Assembly: GCA_963678705.1 (NCBI GenBank)
Contig: OY783204.1
Coordinates: forward strand, 29,026,759-29,090,758
From: Panorpa germanica
Lineage: Eukaryota > Arthropoda > Insecta > Mecoptera > Panorpidae
Direction: 5' to 3'
DNA length: 64,000 bases
The position numbers and the translations under genes are program-made. The notes below the pieces were generated by a model. The model ran no database searches and was not told where the DNA came from. It worked only from the letters and a program-made list of their open reading frames with translations. Shown piece after piece: positions 47,458-63,379 of this stretch (within the stretch, counting starts at the first letter, position 1; every line of letters starts with the position of its first letter).

Positions 47458-47946
47458 ATGTTCAAGCTGGTAAGTCAAACGTATACATGTTTATTAATAC
47501 TCAATTTATAATTTTAATAAATTAAATATAATATAAATTTTCATGTATTCCACTGTATTTTTAGTTCGTTATCGCCGCCGTTTTGGCTGTTGCTTCCGCT
47601 GCCCCAGGAGGTTTGATTGGCGCACCCGGATTAATCGCATCTCCAGGATTAATTGGAGCTCCAGGATTAATTGGAGGACCAGGATTAATTGGAGCCCCAG
47701 GATTAATTGGAGCTCCAGGAATAATTGGAGCCCCAGGATTAATTGGAGCTCCAGGAATAATTGGAGCCCCAGGATTAATTGGCGGCCCAGGTGTTATTAC
47801 TTCCGGAGGATTGATTGGATCTCCTTTGTTGACTTCAGGGCTTGTGTCCAGGGTAACATACTCATAATTACCGGAACTGCTAGTACTGAATATATTTTTA
47901 AATTTTTTTATCTCTGCAGGTTGGACAACCTCTTATTCTTGGTTAA
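47458..47946 (+). CDS. Small secreted Gly-Ala-Pro repeat protein, cuticle-like (three exons)
   Basis: Exons 47458-47469, 47565-47852 and 47920-47946, all in phase 0, encode 108 residues. After a signal peptide (MFKLFVIAAVLAVASA) split by intron 1 after Leu4, the mature protein is a run of about a dozen hexapeptides of the form GLIGAP/GIIGAP/GLIGGP. It closes with GLIGSPLLTSGLVSR and VGQPLILG. The repeat is visible in DNA as an 18-base unit (ggattaattggagctcca), so it probably grew by slippage. It is the paralogue of the gene at 2.85-4.1 kb, but the mature sequence has diverged completely into the repeat. Hydrophobic GxxGAP-type repeats suit a structural extracellular protein, such as cuticle. 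There are no Rebers-Riddiford or Cys motifs. Function is inferred from composition only. Confidence 0.87.
47633..47800 (+). repeat. 18-bp coding tandem repeat (GLIGAP units)
   Basis: About nine imperfect 18-base units encode GLIGAP, GIIGAP or GLIGGP. Neighbouring units differ by few synonymous changes, which points to recent expansion. Units alternate agctcca and agcccca. Confidence 0.9.
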
Positions 47947-48067
47947 ACCTTTGCAATAAGACTGCAGATGACCATCATCTTCTGACTACTACCAACTTGC
48001 AAAACTTTCAATGTTGCCATTGTAATAACTTAAATTGGTTTTAAGATAATTCTAGTTTTAAAATTTT

Positions 48068-53448: not shown

Positions 53449-55952
53449 ATGTAATCCCGCTAAACACAATTAGTTAATTTAACAGAAAAAAGTTTACCTT
53501 TTACAATATGCATAACATTTTTTAGGTTAATATTATATAAAGTTACATAATAAAAATTATTTTCGTTTTGTGGTGTTACTGAAACTTTTTGTGTAAGATC
53601 TTTTTAATTTTTTTAATGATAATGTAAGAGAATTATGTTAGGTAAATAACAAAACGAAACGTTAGATAAAAAATATTACGTAAAATAATACATGAGTTTA
53701 TATTACGAGTGAAAATACGTCCCCTTGGTTTCTCGAGCTTTATAAGACAAAAATTTAATAATTCAATGTTGAGTAATTAGTTTTATGTAATTTACAATGT
53801 AATCTCTAATAATAAGCATATTATTATTACTATTAACCTATGCAAATTTTATATACGAAATTATTTTTGGCAAACAGGCCGAATAAGCTAAAGCCTATTA
53901 ATAAAAAGTAAATAAGCATTAGTACCATCTCTGTTACGGGCTCGGTACAGAATGAATGAATACGTAACACTTTGAAATTATGTTTAAATTTGAGCAGAGA
54001 CGTTTTTATTAAGTAGTAAACATGAAATATACTTTCACGTAACATTTACATAATTGATACGTAAATGTAGTATAAATTATTTTCAAGTTTATTAGTTATT
54101 TGACCTAGGCATCTCTCACTTTAAGCTGTTATCATTAAAGCTGATTGTTACTTTTATTATAGAATGCAAAATAGAGCAGATATCATTTTTAAACCGTGTT
54201 ATAAAGCTCCTGTTATCATGGGCGTATTTGATAGGTTCTACTAGTGACATTTGCAAACCTATTATAGATAATATTGTATTAAAAATATTACCTTAATTAC
54301 AAAGACTATCTGTTTAAAAACCTAAAACTTTTTAACTGCTATGAGAATCTAAAATTAATACTTTTACATTATCTTTTTAGGTTAATAATATGTAAAATTA
54401 CATAACAAAAACTGTTTTACATAAATTTATGTTTTCTGTAGTCAATAAAGTTTTTTATGTAACATTTTATAATGTTAAATATGAAATTAATATATTTGAA
54501 GAATATTTTTTTAATATTATTATTATTTTTAAATAATATTTAAAATTTAAGTTAAATTTAAAGTTATTGGAAGTAAGTAATAATATTTTTAAAGGGAATT
54601 CAGGGTGTATATTTTTTTACTCAGTTGTGATTGGTTGTGTGTTTTTGTTAAGTCCAATAATTGATTAATAAGATAAATATTTCGGGCGTCACGAAGTGAA
54701 AAATAATAAAACAAAAATATGAAATTAAAATGAATTTTATTTTTGTATAATAAATTTGTGCATGCAGATTTTTTGACAAAAAATTTGGCACACTTAAAAT
54801 AAATAAATAATCAACAATAACAAAAGAAAAAAAGAAAATATATTAACATTACAATTTTATTATAAACTTAAAATATTTTCTTTTTGTGTATTTTGATTTA
54901 TGTTATACCTCAATTGTTTTTTAATTGACTATTGGGATACAAAATAAATGATTTTAAATTATCCATTTTCTAAATCAACTTCACCTTTTCCTTTCCTTTT
55001 CTTTTTAATTGTTATTCTTCTTGTTCTATTCTACGGAAGATTGGGGGTTTGTGTTATTTTTTGTTTTTAATTTTTTTTGGTATAGTTTATAGCTTAATTC
55101 GTATTTCATATATTTTTATTTTTGCAATATTTGGCTAAACTTTAGTATATTCTACTGATTTTTTATAATTATATTTTAAAAAACAACATTAGAGTTACAG
55201 AGAAAATTAATAATACATTTTCAAAAATGAGACTCATCCTAAAATGCTGCAACCTAATTTACAAAGGTTGTGAACTTGGATAAAACAACTTGTTCTTTTA
55301 AATTAATTTTCCCTGTAAAGTGTTAATATATTTTTTTTACTTAAATTATTCTAAACATGCACGATCGCAACCGGAGTTTATTTAATACTCAAACCTTTTT
55401 TGTGTTATTTAAATGGTTATTTATTTTTCTACAATTTTTTGTATATATTTTTTTTTTACTAAATCAATTCCATATGTAACCATTCGTTCCCCGTTTTCAT
55501 AATTTTAATATTTCTTATTTTACTTGTAGTTTTCTTTAAGTAAATCATTTAATTTATCCTATTATGAGTATTTATTTATTTTAATACGAGTATAAATGAA
55601 CAAATGGTTTGTTTTTTAGCAGAGTGATGACACGAGTATATTTCTAGATGTAAATATGTTTCATTTCCAACATTAAAGTACAAAACAAATAATATCTAGG
55701 TATTATGTAACAGAAAAATAATTCTAAAATGTTTTACGAATACAAAAACAATAAAAAAACTAGGAATAAATGAAACCTGGGCATTTCCTCAGCAATAGGT
55801 TGATATCGATCGCAACGATCTGATCTGCCATTTTGTTTTTTTTTTTTTCTTTTTGAATCGATTTAAACCTAATGCATGTGGATGCTTAATACAACAATTG
55901 TCCTATTCGGACATAGCGCCTTGCATGCGTTTTAGCCACTCTTGTGACAATT
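53449..55952. other. Non-coding AT-rich stretch downstream of still life
   Basis: No gene supported. The right end probably includes the 3' UTR of the short still life form. Confidence 0.5.
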
Positions 55953-56110
55953 TTAGTTGGCCCCGCCCTCGCCTTTGCGCCCCTGATGCCCCGGATGCCC
56001 CGGATGACCCGGATGACCCGGATGACCCGGATGAACCGGATGACCCTGCTGGCCGCCTATTGGCAGGTCTCCTAAGCTAAGCATGTCACGTGGTTTCCAC
56101 ACAGGCGATC
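55953..56110 (-). CDS. sif: Alternative terminal exon of still life with a Gly-His-Pro repeat
   Basis: This 158-base exon starts after TTGTAG at 56110 and ends at TAA (55955-55953). It joins the donor at 58727 (GAGTTAG|GTAAGA) exactly in phase 1, giving ...VKELGSPVWKPRDMLSLGDL. It then continues into PIGGQQ, seven tandem HPG-type tripeptides and the basic end GRKGEGGAN. The in-phase junction, good splice sites and non-random WKPRDMLSLGDLP sequence support it as a true exon. Using it removes the 253-residue tail of the long form. The tripeptides are encoded by a 9-base unit (ggtcatccg). Confidence 0.75.
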
Positions 56111-57983
56111 CTACAAAACAATTATTTTGTTAACATTTGTTAAAAGCAACTTTTTTTTCTATTATTGCAACTATTTATAATATAAAAGTGCTTTTATTAT
56201 TAGTATTATTATTATTATTATATGCATAATAATTATCTAAATTATATATTTTATTTTGCATCTAAATTTGATAATTTTGTTAAATAAAATAAAAACGAAC
56301 ATTCAGAAGGTGCTTATCAGGTGGAATTAGAAAATTTGTATTTACAATATTTATAATAAAATGGGATAAACTGTTTACTACATAAATTAATAATTAGGCT
56401 CAGGAAAACACCACACGATAAAATTGATAATAATTAATAACATCGATAATGAACATTTAAGAAAAATACAGTAACAATCAAAATCCAAGACAATTGAATT
56501 TACGTTTTTAGAAATCTAACAGCAACTAGATTCAAATGATTTTTGTTTGATTTTTGCTGGGTTTTGTGTGACCATCGCAATGTGTGTGAGAACCAGCCGA
56601 CATTTTATAAAAATGCATGTGATTCAGCCCCTCGTTTTGGTAGCAAAGCGGAATTTATTTATTAATACACATATTATCAAGTAATTAGGCCTAATACTTC
56701 ATCAAATTTCACTAGTTTACTAATTAAGTACTACTGTTATACAGAAATCAGTTCATTAGTTACTTTGAACACAAATTTATTAACAAACATTTCAATTTCA
56801 CCCTAATCTCCAAAAGCATGCTTAAATAAACACCCTAACTGTATTTAAGGGTTAGACTAATATCACATAAGCTAGTACTCAAGATGAATTGATTACTTTG
56901 TAATTTAGTTTCTTCCCAATTTCAATTCTTTCTAGCACTATGTGATATTTTCGAACAATTAATGAGAAATCAATAAAGTATTTCTGCTTAATTATATTTA
57001 AAGTTTTCTGGAGATATTAGTGAAATTTCAAGTTTGATATTTATTATTCTAATAATAATTCTATATTTGAAACTTTTATTTATATATATAAGTAATTTAC
57101 TCTGAATAGATATTCTTAATTTACTAATTAATGCATTTACTAACTAATAAGCCATGCTTTAAGCGCAATACACTAACACTAAATAATAAATAAAATTAAA
57201 TAAATCATAAACAACGTCTAATCAAACATCTAGATCTTTCAAACGTGACGTCATTTGTGTAATATTTGATAATGTTGTTGTTTAAACATATCAGAAGTGG
57301 GATTTTTAAAAAGCGTTTGGTTAATGTGATTTTAGGCGTTTTATTAGCTTCAAAATCATGCCACGTGTGTTTAACATACAAATTGCATGATATCAGGTGG
57401 TTTAGTAGATATATTTATTAATAATTTAAGTTTAGGAATAATGAAATAGTGGAGTGTACTTTTCGAACTAAAAGTTATAAAGCTGCTGTGTAATTGGCAT
57501 AATTTTATACATCTGTAGTTTTCTTTATATAAATTCCCTTACGTTTTTTATTATGTTAAGTAACATTATTAATTCCTTGTCTACTTGTTGATTTAAGGAT
57601 TAAACAAATTGTAACTGTTTAGTTGTTTAAAACAAATTTCTTTAATGTGTAACACTCTACTTCTTAGCAGAGAGTTACGTCTTACGTTAGTTAACGAAGA
57701 GACAATTTCTAAAATCTATTGAAATGTATTATTTCTACTTTTACTTATTTTTTAAAATGTATTTAATATATGAAGCATTTTAGAAGTCACGGGCTTATCA
57801 CCATTTAAAAGATAGTCTCAGTCAACATTATTTTAATCATTTCATTTTGAATGAAATGATTTAGACGTGGATTTCATAGGAATCTCCACGTTCTAAGCTG
57901 GTTTGCATATCCAAAGAAGAGCTATTATTTCTAGCAATGGTTAGTTTCTTTCGCGAACGACTGGGTCGCGATCGGGCCCTATG
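56111..57983. other. Intron of the short still life form and 3' flank of the long form
   Basis: AT-rich with no other exon identified. The bases just before 57984 (on the minus strand, after the stop) would be the 3' UTR of the long form. Confidence 0.55.
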
Positions 57984-60900
57984 CTAGGAGGGTTTCTCAT
58001 TCGTTTTCTTATTAGAAAGTATACATTGTACACAAGTTGGGTTTTCAATAGCTTTAACAATGCTTTCGTTTGATTTAGACAGGTTGATTCCTAAAGAAGT
58101 TAGGTTGTTTATAGCTTCTCCAGACTTGGCTGACTTTTCTGGCGATTTTGATTTGGATGGTGAACGTTTTATACCGTTCATGCGACTGTCGGCTCTATCT
58201 AACGAACTGCTAGTGTGTTTCACAATGTGTTTATCAGGTGACTTTGATTTCCGAAGGCTCCGTCGTTCGCTAGAGGCGCTGCGATCAGGGGAAATCGAAT
58301 TTTGTCTCGCGTGTACCTTTAGCGAATTCTCTCCAGAATATTGGGAGTCAAAACTAAGTTCGTAGCTACTATTTCTACTACCGCGATCCAACGATTTAGT
58401 CGTTCGCTTTCCAGCCCGGTCAGGAGACCGTTCGAAACTACCCTTTGGACTGTTAGGATTACTCGGAAACAATCTAGCGTTGCGTTCCAATGATTTGGAA
58501 GCAGCTTTCCTAGCTTCTATCGATATTTTCTTGTCAATGCTACCGCGAGGTGATCTGGCCTTGACAATTCTGACAGGAGAATTGGACATGGATTTGCATC
58601 TATCGGGAGATCTGGATTTATCGATACTACTTCTCGGGGATTTTAAGATTTTTTTAGGTGTTGTGCTTGTAGAACATGTGCCGCCGTTTATAATTTGTGA
58701 ATTTTCATTTTCTTGTGTTTTCTTACCTAACTCTTTGACCATTATTGGTTGGTAAGTAGCTGGCGGATGTGACGATTGAATTAGTCGAGCTTGACTTCCT
58801 GTACTACCAACCGAAAGAGTTGACGTTGTGCTGAAATGAAGAAGGGTTTGTTAGCAGCCAGGTGTTAGTAGAAAGTGAGAAATTAGTTTAGTGAAGGACA
58901 AGAGTGAAGATTAGTAGTAGAACACACATAAAGCGTAGTAGTAAGATGAAATGGCGTACTAGTGAAATCAAATGATCTCACCTTAATGTTAGATGATTCG
59001 GAGTTCTTCCAAGTGTGGCCTTAGACTTACTGCCAGCTTGAGAATCTTCTTCACCTTCTGATTTTGTTCCCGGATCAGTTTTTTCAGAAGGTTCAGTTTG
59101 TGGAGCACGTTTTGTGGATTCTGTAAAGGTAAGTACTTGTTACAGGGTAAAAAACTACAGACTTAAGCCCGAGGAAATCATAATTATCTTACCCCCGGCA
59201 TCCCCAACGGTTTTACTGCGACTTCTAAACGAAGACGTTGCTGCTGGTGGCGGTTCATCAGCCTCTTGACTTCCTAGATTATCATAGTCAATATTTCCAG
59301 CTGAATGACGCTGCGTATTTTTCGATTTCTTTGTTTTGCCTAATGTTTGTGATCCTTGTACAATTGTAATCTGTGAAACAAACGCTCTTACAAACTATTT
59401 TCATGAAACTACAACAGGATTCTAGATCACACGAACCTGTGACTTTGTGCTTGGTCGTTCTAACGTTTGGCTATTGCCAGGATCTTTCAGTGTTCCATGC
59501 ATTAATGGTAATCCACCTAATCCTGGTCTTGTTGAGGGTATTGACATATTCCTAACACTTTCTCGGATGATTTGTCGGATTGTTTTCAGGAAGGCATTTC
59601 TAAAATCAGCGGTGCTGAGACCGTTCACAAAATAAATGTACACTGGATTGTCCATGCAATTAATCTACATAAGTTTTAAGACATAAATACACACCTGTTT
59701 GATAAAACGTATACTTTTTCTGAACGTCTTTGTAGTTGTGATCTTAAATGGATAAGTTCCCAAAGGAAATGTGAATCCATGTCCTTTGCAGATGACGCTC
59801 GTACTTGAACTTCAGTTACTGGGATTAAAACTTGATATCTAATAATTTCTACTTCGTTCGATGTACTCTTACTTGACACGCCCTGGAAATATCATCATGT
59901 TATCCAGAGATCTAATATTAAATTAGCATAGCGGAGCTAAGACTTACCATTAATTTCTTCTTTTGTCTTAATCTCTCTTTACATAAAAATACAACAGCCG
60001 ATTTAAATACAAAACACATTGCATGAAGCTCCAAACCTTTTTTTATTTTTCCTAAAAAGTCTGAGATATTTAACCACTCGACTCCCCCGTAATATAAAAG
60101 GTCACCTGAAGGTAAAATAAATGTTTTGTTTTAGTAACAATGTGAGCGCATAATGACAAACAATTAATACGAGACGGATGGGGTACAGAAGTAGCATGTA
60201 TTGGTTCTTACTTTTATTAAAATTACCTGGACTTAAGTCTATAGGTTGTTTGCAGGATTTTTGGTGTTGTCTAAACAAGTGGTCAAAAATAGCACCATAC
60301 TCCTCGTGAATTCGTTGCATTTCATTTATGTGTTCAGCGACTTTTTCCATTCCCTTTAGAGCCTCTGATCATTTTTAAATAATTCAAATTAGTTACATAA
60401 TAATTGGTAGAAATGTATAAGTAAAATTATCTGTTGCTTACCAACTAAATGCAGATGCTCCTCCGCAGATGGGTCAGTTAAATTGCGTAATTGTTGCAGA
60501 AGTAAGGGGTATTTTAATATACGTTGAATAGGTTTAATTAGATATGATTCTAACGTAGAAGAATGTTGTTGCTTGGGGTTCCTGGCGCACAGGAACTCCT
60601 GCAGCGCTTGATTACCTTCATCTAAAAATAGTTTCAATCATTCGAAATAAATAACTTGTTTTTTCATGCACAAAAACAACAGCCAATGCTCTTACTTGGA
60701 TGCAACACTTTCTGCGCCTTGCTGTGACTCGCACAAAATGAGCTGTATAGTTTAAAATGATTAACGTAGTATAAGAAAGCGCTTCCCACTGAGAAAAGTA
60801 CGTTCTAGAGAAGATATAAATAGATTAGTTGCTTTTTCTACGCTCCTAGTTTCTTACCAAATGTTTAACATACTTTAAATTGACTCGAATGCTCAAACTT

Positions 60901-63379
60901 ATGAAAATCTGGTTCAAGTTCCAAAGCTTCATCCAAATTTTGTAAGAATTGTCTTTGAAACGTTACGATTTCTTGGATATTTCCAAACAAGGCGTTAATT
61001 TCAGCGTTGGATAAGAATGTCTCGCGTTTTAAAGGCTCTAAATAATGTTCCAACAGGTTATTTAAATGCTGGAAAGAAATTTCAGATATTTAAAATTTTG
61101 TAAGATTCTCTTTGTAACTTTAAGGGCGTTAATTTTTCTTTACTTTGACGTAAGCTCTTTCAGTATCCACGAGTTCCAGAATAACTTTCCGTAGTTTTTC
61201 CGCATCTGAGAGTTGTCTACTTGGAGTTAGGAGAGCATTAGATACACTACTGGCCACGCTTCCGGTGGGGCTTGACTTCCTTGTTTCCTGCGGCGACCGA
61301 CAGAAGCCAGTAACTTGTTCCGCCGTCTAAATCGAACAGAAAAACATTTATATGAAAGAAACCACACTGTCTTGCACTTTAATCAATTTACCTTAAGTAG
61401 ATTTTCAATTTCAAATGAATTTGTCCGCGATGTTTGTTTAGTTCCACCAGATGTCTCACCAGTCATTGGCATTGATGTTTCCGGTTCCGAGGAATATAAC
61501 TCTTTACCTGTAATTAAATCCCATTAAAGTTAAACTTAGTAATTAAATTTTGTGCAACTGGTATTCAAGATAACTCACTCCATCCTGGAGCCGGGACAAT
61601 TAGCCCTGATATCATCTCCTCGCTGATAACAGGTGGTTCTGATGGGGGTGGGGGACACACAAGACTCTCAATTATGTCATCTGTTGCTCTCATCACGCCC
61701 GCCAGGTCAGGAGGCTCCGTACGTGAGGATCTAGAACGGTGTGATATACCCGTACTTTTACCGATATTGATTTCAAACGACTTAATGTCAACAAGCGACG
61801 GCTTTAGAAGAGCGTTTTGATGCTAATTTCATATTAAATATCTTATTAAAAGTTAAGTCTAATTAGCTTTTATAGACAGGTCACAGATGCTGGGTAATTC
61901 GTATTAAAGTTAAAGTAAAGACTAATTAAGTCTGATTAATAATAGGGAGAGCAAAACACGTTAATTCATTTTGAAATTATGTTCCAATTTGTTTTGAAAT
62001 GAACGTCCACAGGGAGTGGTAAACGCGACACTTGTTGTATTTCTTTCCCTGATCATAATTTAATGTATCTTACAATTACAATTACAAGTTACACAAATGA
62101 TTACTGACCTCATCATCATACACAGAGCGAGTTCTTCCTGTAGCACACTCTCCAAATACATCATATCCAAATCAGAAACGATAGCTCCGTTAATCACCAT
62201 AATTTCATCTCCTTTAATGATGCCTGAAATGTAACGTAAGCTCATTTAGATTTAATTTAGTTATTTCCCAATCAATTTAGCATTCGATAATGATTTACCA
62301 TTCTGCATAGCAACGCTCTTGTCTTCCACACGACTAACGTAGCAACATAATTCATCTTGCCGGTCAGAATTCTCAATTAGTTCTGCTTCCACAGAGAAGC
62401 CCCACATTTGGTCTAGGGTACTACGTTGCAATTCTACTTGATAGAGTATTTTAGCGCAAACTTCTACCATTTCGTGTGTGTGCAACTATTGATAAATAAG
62501 TTTAGTTGTGAAACTTTTAATTAGTGAATTAGTGCAACTGTGTTAAGACTTACGTATGTCTCAATAAGATCGCTGCGATGAGGAACAAAGTAATTATGAT
62601 CTTCCATATCTCGACGTTTCTTGACCCGCACAAAATGTTCCATAGGATTAAGAGCTTTCCTTCCACAAGCACTCGCCAGGAATTCCTCCACCGACATAGA
62701 TTCCCTCAGGAACACTCCAGCGAACGCGTTATCAGGGAGCGATACTTTCACCGTCTTGTCCGGTTCCTCTCGCGAGTTCATCTGCATTAATTGTCCCGAT
62801 TTTATAAATCCCGTTGACCTATTGATTTTAGCAAATGGTTGGGGTTTAAATAACTCACCTGGAGTGACCTTCGGCTGGATCCACTATTTGAACGTGACAA
62901 CAGTGGGGGACGACGTTTCGTGGCCCCCCGTCCTGCTAGTAAGTTATTTAGGAGGGAGGGACTTCGGGCACAGATAAATGCGTGGAATGAGGACACTGTA
63001 AATACCCCTAACTTATTCAAGGTATTTTTTGTGGGCCTGGAAACGTGGGTCAGCAGCGACTGTAACAATTCAGACTAATTTTAAAAATAAAGGATGTTGA
63101 ATACCACATTTTGTTTTTGTGTTATTTTTACATTTACTAAAAACATATTTTTTTGTAAAAAACAAATGTTCAAATCTTGTCGAAATGTTTACTCACCTTT
63201 GGATTAGGCAACTCTCCACTTTGCAACGACGCCATGTAGCACCTCAGCCGAAATTGTTCACAATGTAAGCGCTCTAAATTTTCCTCCCATTGCACAATTT
63301 GTCCTGAAAGCTGGTGCTTCGTTTCCTGATCTGATACAACACTCTGCTGCAGGTCAGCCATATGTTTCAGCTTATGGTC
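57984..63379 (-). CDS. sif: Still life / Tiam1-type Rac guanine nucleotide exchange factor, C-terminal 18 exons (5' end beyond the window)
   Basis: The exons run 63197-63379, 62859-63059, 62554-62781, 62299-62485, 62109-62223, 61579-61730, 61392-61507, 61144-61326, 60874-61068, 60696-60804, 60442-60621, 60227-60364, 59948-60105, 59695-59882, 59437-59614, 59193-59370, 58982-59120 and 57984-58830. All are phase-compatible with GT-AG borders. They encode 1,224 residues of the long form, or 1,029 of the short form. In order: the coiled coil and [11 protein letters not shown] segment after the first PH domain; the Ras-binding domain (KVSLPDNAF ... FVRVKKRRD); a PDZ domain ([11 protein letters not shown] ... 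GDEIMVING); a DH domain ([20 protein letters not shown] ... [19 protein letters not shown]); and a second PH domain ([15 protein letters not shown] ... [20 protein letters not shown]). The long form ends in a basic Ser/Pro-rich tail with repeated SPDR, SLDR and SPRGSIDK motifs. The family activates Rac at synapses and the cell cortex. No break was found. Confidence 0.96.

Follow-up and report, generated by a model that had tools for sequence, protein, structure and literature searches.

The minus strand of a 64,000-nucleotide stretch of the Panorpa germanica genome (contig OY783204.1, 29,026,759-29,090,758; this whole stretch is the window, and positions are counted from its first base) carries what is, by its domain content, the 3′-terminal part of an insect gene of the still life (sif)/Tiam family. 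The sequence makes it probable that this gene end has two alternative terminal exons, giving proteins with two different C-termini. Both readings, spliced and unspliced, are open and in phase from a single splice donor at 58727, and the natural reading would make this donor the single chooser between the two endings. With the donor spliced to 56110, the protein would end in a 52-residue distal tail. With the donor unused, and with the transcript cleaved and polyadenylated within this 2.6-kb intron, a composite terminal exon would form instead and would give the Rac exchange factor a long basic tail of at least 247 residues with repeated S-x-[DE]-[RK] motifs. Alternative last exons generally work in this manner, an unspliced donor giving one C-terminus and a spliced donor another, and the mechanism is of a common, ordinary kind. 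An earlier sequence-only reading had proposed the choice between these two tails; its observation is confirmed and its interpretation is supported in part.

The identity of the gene was examined on a model of 18 exons, which, when joined from 63379 to 58727 on the minus strand, give 986 codons in one open frame. The first exon model had lost the frame, and three junctions were then moved by eye to hold a single frame; the open frame is thus partly a product of construction, and the independent check is provided by the Pfam and PDB matches. Along the model, the domains Tiam_CC_Ex, RBD, PDZ, RhoGEF (DH), and PH_Tiam1 (Pfam) follow one another in this order. The families PF18385, PF02196, PF00621, and PF23014 score above their cut-offs in the joined exons, while the PDZ domain (PF00595) is positioned as expected yet remains below its cut-off (21.4 vs 23.2 bits). 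The top PDB match of the model protein is the DH-PH part of TIAM1 (1foe, E 3.6e-115). The Tiam-specific domains and TIAM1 as the best PDB match are the reasons for assigning the gene to still life/Tiam, the identity already given in the sequence-only reading. The same domain order is found in the known members of the family, Drosophila sif and mammalian TIAM1 and TIAM2, and family membership would imply a Rac-specific exchange activity of the product. Each of the two C-terminal endings has one full match in the whole genome, and the short ending finds two further weak matches, to its repeat, on contig C19 (E 0.12). Published papers mention a "SIF type 1" and a "SIF type 2".

At the donor, the frame TTSTLSVG...PIMVKEL, running from 58830, is followed by GTAAGA directly after G58727 (AAGAGTTAG/GTAAGAAAA; slashes mark cuts). 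Scored with a matrix built from the 17 remaining donors, which were themselves scored leave-one-out, this site reaches 8.39 and ranks 6th among the 18 in the model. Splicing from 58727 to 56110 removes an intron of 2616 bases (58726..56111) and keeps the phase exactly (TTGTTTTGTAG/GATCGCC at the acceptor), so that the spliced reading continues as GSPVWKPRDMLSLGDLPIGGQQ(GHP)n...GGAN and ends at the TAA at 55955-55953. The unspliced frame, GKKTQENE...TNEKPS, is open for 247 codons and ends at the TAG at 57986-57984. Direct reading of the bases bears out three claims made earlier, namely the consensus donor at 58727, its exact-phase join to 56110, and the 247-codon open frame left when splicing does not occur.

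The long tail is very likely real protein sequence. When the frame is read past each of the 17 remaining donors, a stop is reached after 1-41 codons, compared with 247 past 58727, and none of 5000 dinucleotide shuffles kept the tail open. The tail contains 12 S-x-[DE]-[RK] motifs where 1.0 is expected from its composition, and this number was reached in 0 of 20000 shuffles. Identical tetrapeptides within it share only 8-9 of 12 bases, their codons being varied, and a tandem-repeat search (TRF) found no repeat in the long-tail stretch. Since the motifs recur in varied codons and without a DNA repeat, the recurrence is at the level of the protein, and the 12 motifs in varied codons, unmatched in the shuffles, are what makes the tail very likely protein. 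Its net charge is +29, and it has 11 [ST]P sites; the earlier reading had described a long basic tail with SPDR/SLDR motifs. The tail is probably disordered. Splicing to 56110 could instead be constitutive, the long open frame being an unused intron. The strength of donor 58727 would suit such a case, which is nonetheless highly improbable in view of the 247 open codons, the patterning of motifs at the protein level, and the synonymous variety.

Several measures weigh against a firm coding assignment for the long tail. Its codon score of 0.085 (0.117 in the shared exons) is matched by 5.2% of 212 sixty-codon null windows, and its codon bias appears only moderately coding-like. One antisense frame, interrupted by a single stop, has a score of 0.07, and the synonymous bias cannot tell the tail from the null (16%). 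In the final 40 codons ahead of the TAG, the codon score is like that of noncoding DNA (24% of 710 windows as high). Codon and synonymous bias, being too weak, were set aside as the chief proof of coding. When the long tail was searched together with the 40 codons that follow its stop, no PDB chain matched with an E-value of 1 or lower; Pfam returned nothing in the long tail or these 40 codons, and in the short tail only a Collagen match below the cut-off.

The end of the long tail may also be read in another way. An unrecognised intron, for example 58134..57979, would remove the TAG and join the tail to the 40 codons beyond it, and the NEKPS ending would then be the product of a retained intron. 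The two sites, AAA/GTCAGC and CATAG/GGC, are in phase, the last 49 residues before the TAG contain neither Arg nor an S-x-[DE]-[RK] motif, and the GC content of 58134..57979 is 0.36 compared with 0.43-0.45 on both flanks. However, the acceptor scores -1.11, and the stretch is open, though only 1.1% of its shuffles are; donors with C at +3 are generally rare. With 79 of 150 codon shuffles, the block of low GC content lacks significance and was rejected as proof of an inner intron. We consider such an intron unlikely.

For the short tail, the evidence lies in the part of the distal exon outside its repeat, which resembles a coding exon; the short tail as a whole is likely, though its case is weaker than that of the long one. 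The 23 non-repeat codons (GSPVWKPRDMLSLGDLPIGGQQG) outscore 99.9% of 2655 null windows. An acceptor scoring no lower than this one and followed by at least 23 codons with a codon score of at least 0.30 occurs twice in 160 kb of single strand, counted on each strand of an 80-kb region upstream of the window that may include real exons. Down to 48000, no candidate with 23 or more codons that cleared the two thresholds came up as a further distal exon; shorter exons would escape this limit.

Other points speak against the distal exon. Its acceptor, with a score of 1.13, is lower than 16 of the 18 other acceptors, and an in-phase AG before 56068 scores 3.9; use of the latter would drop the SPVWKPRDMLSLG part. 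Furthermore, more than half of the exon consists of the DNA repeat and its rim. This part has a higher codon score on the opposite strand (0.61 vs 0.26), and its synonymous bias lies at the noncoding end, with 98.8% of null windows equal or higher. The Gly-His-Pro run, encoded by near-identical repeated DNA, provides no evidence of selection at the protein level. The earlier statement that both readings look like selected protein fits the long tail, with its clear protein-level patterning; it is weaker for the short tail, of which only the 23 non-repeat codons resemble coding sequence.

The distal exon might also be unused, with GSPVWKP... a product of chance or a relic, the long tail the sole C-terminus, and 58727 a decoy donor within the last exon. 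The weak acceptor and the richness in repeat would fit such a situation, as would the other frame open at the exon end, QLKLSQEWLKRMQGAMSE, whose codon score is equalled by 3.1% of 4308 null windows. On the other side, the non-repeat codons score as coding, and a strong donor stands in exact phase with the exon. We regard an unused distal exon as improbable. Taken together, a long tail that is very likely protein and a distal non-repeat part that is exon-like make both endings probable.

The arrangement with two alternative terminal exons has the layout of intronic polyadenylation, in which a composite and a distal terminal exon alternate: here too the donor lies inside the potential last exon, and nothing essential differs. 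Both mRNAs would be made, intronic polyadenylation would compete with splicing, and the two tails may differ in phosphorylation and binding. The polyadenylation hexamers lend no weight to this scheme, as AATAAA occurs 10 times in 1.87 kb with about 6.5 expected in such AT-rich DNA, and they are uninformative.

The sequence-only reading placed the end of the long tail at 57984 and mentioned neither a continuation of the frame past this stop nor the second frame open at the distal-exon end. The TAG is present there, and the tail may nevertheless be incomplete, as the same frame continues for 40 tail-like codons. These observations suggest readthrough as the leading account of the 40 codons: the UAG of the long tail may be leaky, so that a fraction of the long-tail proteins would gain 40 residues. 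This explanation, which would complement the choice between alternative last exons, is plausible but falls short of an even chance. The composition of the 40-codon stretch fits that of the first 198 tail residues with a log-likelihood ratio of 8.4, a value reached by 5 of 777 open 40-codon noncoding windows, by 2 of the 149 windows with a GC content of 0.40-0.52, and, when the stretch itself was dinucleotide-shuffled 20000 times, by 7 of the 1831 sequences that stayed open. The last two comparisons do not support GC content by itself as the source of the tail-like composition. One more S-x-[DE]-[RK] motif, SLER, is found in the stretch (and in 90 of the 1831 open shuffles), and SSSLD recurs there with other codons. 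The GC content is 0.46 in the stretch and 0.23 in the 120 bases past the second stop. The stretch ends in GDSYEIHV, and we take its EIHV end to resemble a class II PDZ ligand.

Other properties of the 40 codons speak against readthrough. Their length is ordinary: 3 of 27 control open reading frames, chosen by length and with stops that are not all known gene ends, have at least 40 codons past the stop, one of them also after TAG-C. Moreover, 8.9% of the stretch's own shuffles are open. Of 710 null windows, 4.4% equal its codon score of 0.09, and a different reading frame of this DNA reaches 0.14, although two stops interrupt it. Besides readthrough, the 40 codons could be due to chance or be a relic, the stop could be recent or polymorphic, or an inner intron could remove it. 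One control frame (L048, at a locus from the kinase-domain search) has 321 codons, ends in TAG-C, and is followed by 44 codons in the same frame.

Structure formation after a stop is common in readthrough and not obligatory. Around the UAG, a hairpin and an outer stem that holds the stop codon are predicted. However, the folds starting from the stop are no better than those of shuffled sequences (z 0.07 at lengths of both 43 and 83 bases). A 129-base fold reaches z -1.89, with 7 of 200 shuffles as stable, and an 84-base stretch past the second stop reaches z -1.93. RNA structure was thus rejected as proof of readthrough, being no better than shuffles or a control stretch. The closest comparison is the proven readthrough of Drosophila dfr (vvl), for which UAG-C and a proximal stem-loop are described (PMC8417969, PMC13170385). 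The sif stop likewise has UAG-C, a predicted stem-loop nearby, and a Ser/Arg-rich extension in the same frame, and these shared features count in favor of readthrough. In contrast to dfr, the structure here is not significant, and the bases at +4 to +9 are CAUAGG, unlike the CAAUCA given for dfr. One report estimates that 5% of annotated stops in mosquito and 6% in fly undergo readthrough (PMC5100048). In the main texts searched for it, supplementary gene lists aside, the word sif is absent, which also counts against the proposal.

If the UAG on the long form is leaky, three C-termini would result, through splicing or polyadenylation and through translation. That the C-terminus is set at two such levels, the donor choosing between the short and the long tail and the leaky UAG adding 40 residues, is a tentative proposal that we rate as rather doubtful.

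Relatives of the long tail or of the DH-PH part were found in none of the viral contigs, and relatives of the RBD-to-PH part in none of the prokaryotic contigs. As the contig collections are viral and prokaryotic and not insect, the missing relatives mean nothing. No description of these sif tails was found in the open-licence PMC text, supplements excluded. Neither tRNA genes nor Rfam families at the gathering score were present within the window. The positions of the features described are collected in Table 1.

Table 1 Features at the 3′ end of the sif/Tiam gene, in window coordinates. Slashes mark splice cuts.
Feature	Position	Strand	Description	Basis
Shared still life/Tiam coding part	58727..63379	-	18 exons (those inside the window)	Gene model, Pfam, PDB match
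Splice donor	58721..58729	-	TAG/GTAAGA, cut after 58727; use or non-use would select the C-terminus	Donor score
Long tail	57984..58726	-	247 codons, counting the codon at 58727, to TAG 57986-57984	Frame, shuffles, motifs
Weak candidate intron	57979..58134	-	AAA/GTCAGC ... CATAG/GGC; would remove the TAG in frame	Donor 6.19, acceptor -1.11
Candidate readthrough extension	57861..57983	-	40 codons HRARSRPSRSRKKLTIARNNSSSLDMQTSLERGDSYEIHV in the tail frame past the TAG, ending at TAA 57863-57861	Composition, codon score
Predicted RNA hairpin	57951..57971	-	6 bp, UCGCGA with UCGCGA; 12-base spacer after the UAG	Pair probabilities 0.69-0.96
Predicted RNA stem	57931..57987	-	6 bp, 57987-57982 with 57936-57931; holds the UAG, encloses the hairpin	Pair probabilities 0.70-0.72
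Acceptor of distal terminal exon	56111..56130	-	ACAAAATAATTGTTTTGTAG	Score 1.13
Distal terminal exon	55953..56110	-	52 codons GSPVWKPRDMLSLGDLPIGGQQGHP...GGAN, then TAA; 58727 supplies the first base of the opening codon	Frame, codon score
Distal-exon peptide stretches	Within 55953..56110	-	SPVWKPRDMLSLGDLP, GSPVWKPRDMLSLGDLP	
Tandem repeat	55981..56046	-	9 bp, 7.3 copies, 92% matches; encodes the Gly-His-Pro run	Tandem-repeat search; near-identical codons
Second open frame at distal-exon end	55903..55959	-	QLKLSQEWLKRMQGAMSE, then TAG; out of the GSPVWKP frame	Codon score

Some further features were noted apart from the sif locus. On the plus strand of the window, 47537..47959 holds a 140-codon open frame with a repeated RINWSSR/NNWSPR pattern, perhaps a DNA repeat. 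Elsewhere in the genome, matches to the protein kinase domain form clusters on C6 (19.16-19.58 Mb), C13 (16.16-16.29 Mb), and C7 (3.04-3.16 Mb), each with many copies within about 0.1-0.4 Mb. Most of these copies are unbroken frames of about 270-410 codons, while some contain an internal stop. Partial nuclear copies of mitochondrial COX1 give 19 matches beside the full one on C249. They lie on C1, C3, C5, C10, C16, C21, and other contigs, and nearly all of them have internal TGA, with two below the family cut-off.

In neurons, Sif and Tiam proteins couple Rac to signals from the membrane and from scaffolds. The tail switch at the 3′ end of the Panorpa germanica gene, if true, would alter the binding partners of an identical catalytic core, and the repeated S-x-[DE]-[RK] motif of the long tail is a well-defined place to look for binding by kinases or scaffolds. 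Should the UAG prove leaky as well, the protein would have three graded endings, set by splicing or polyadenylation together with translation.

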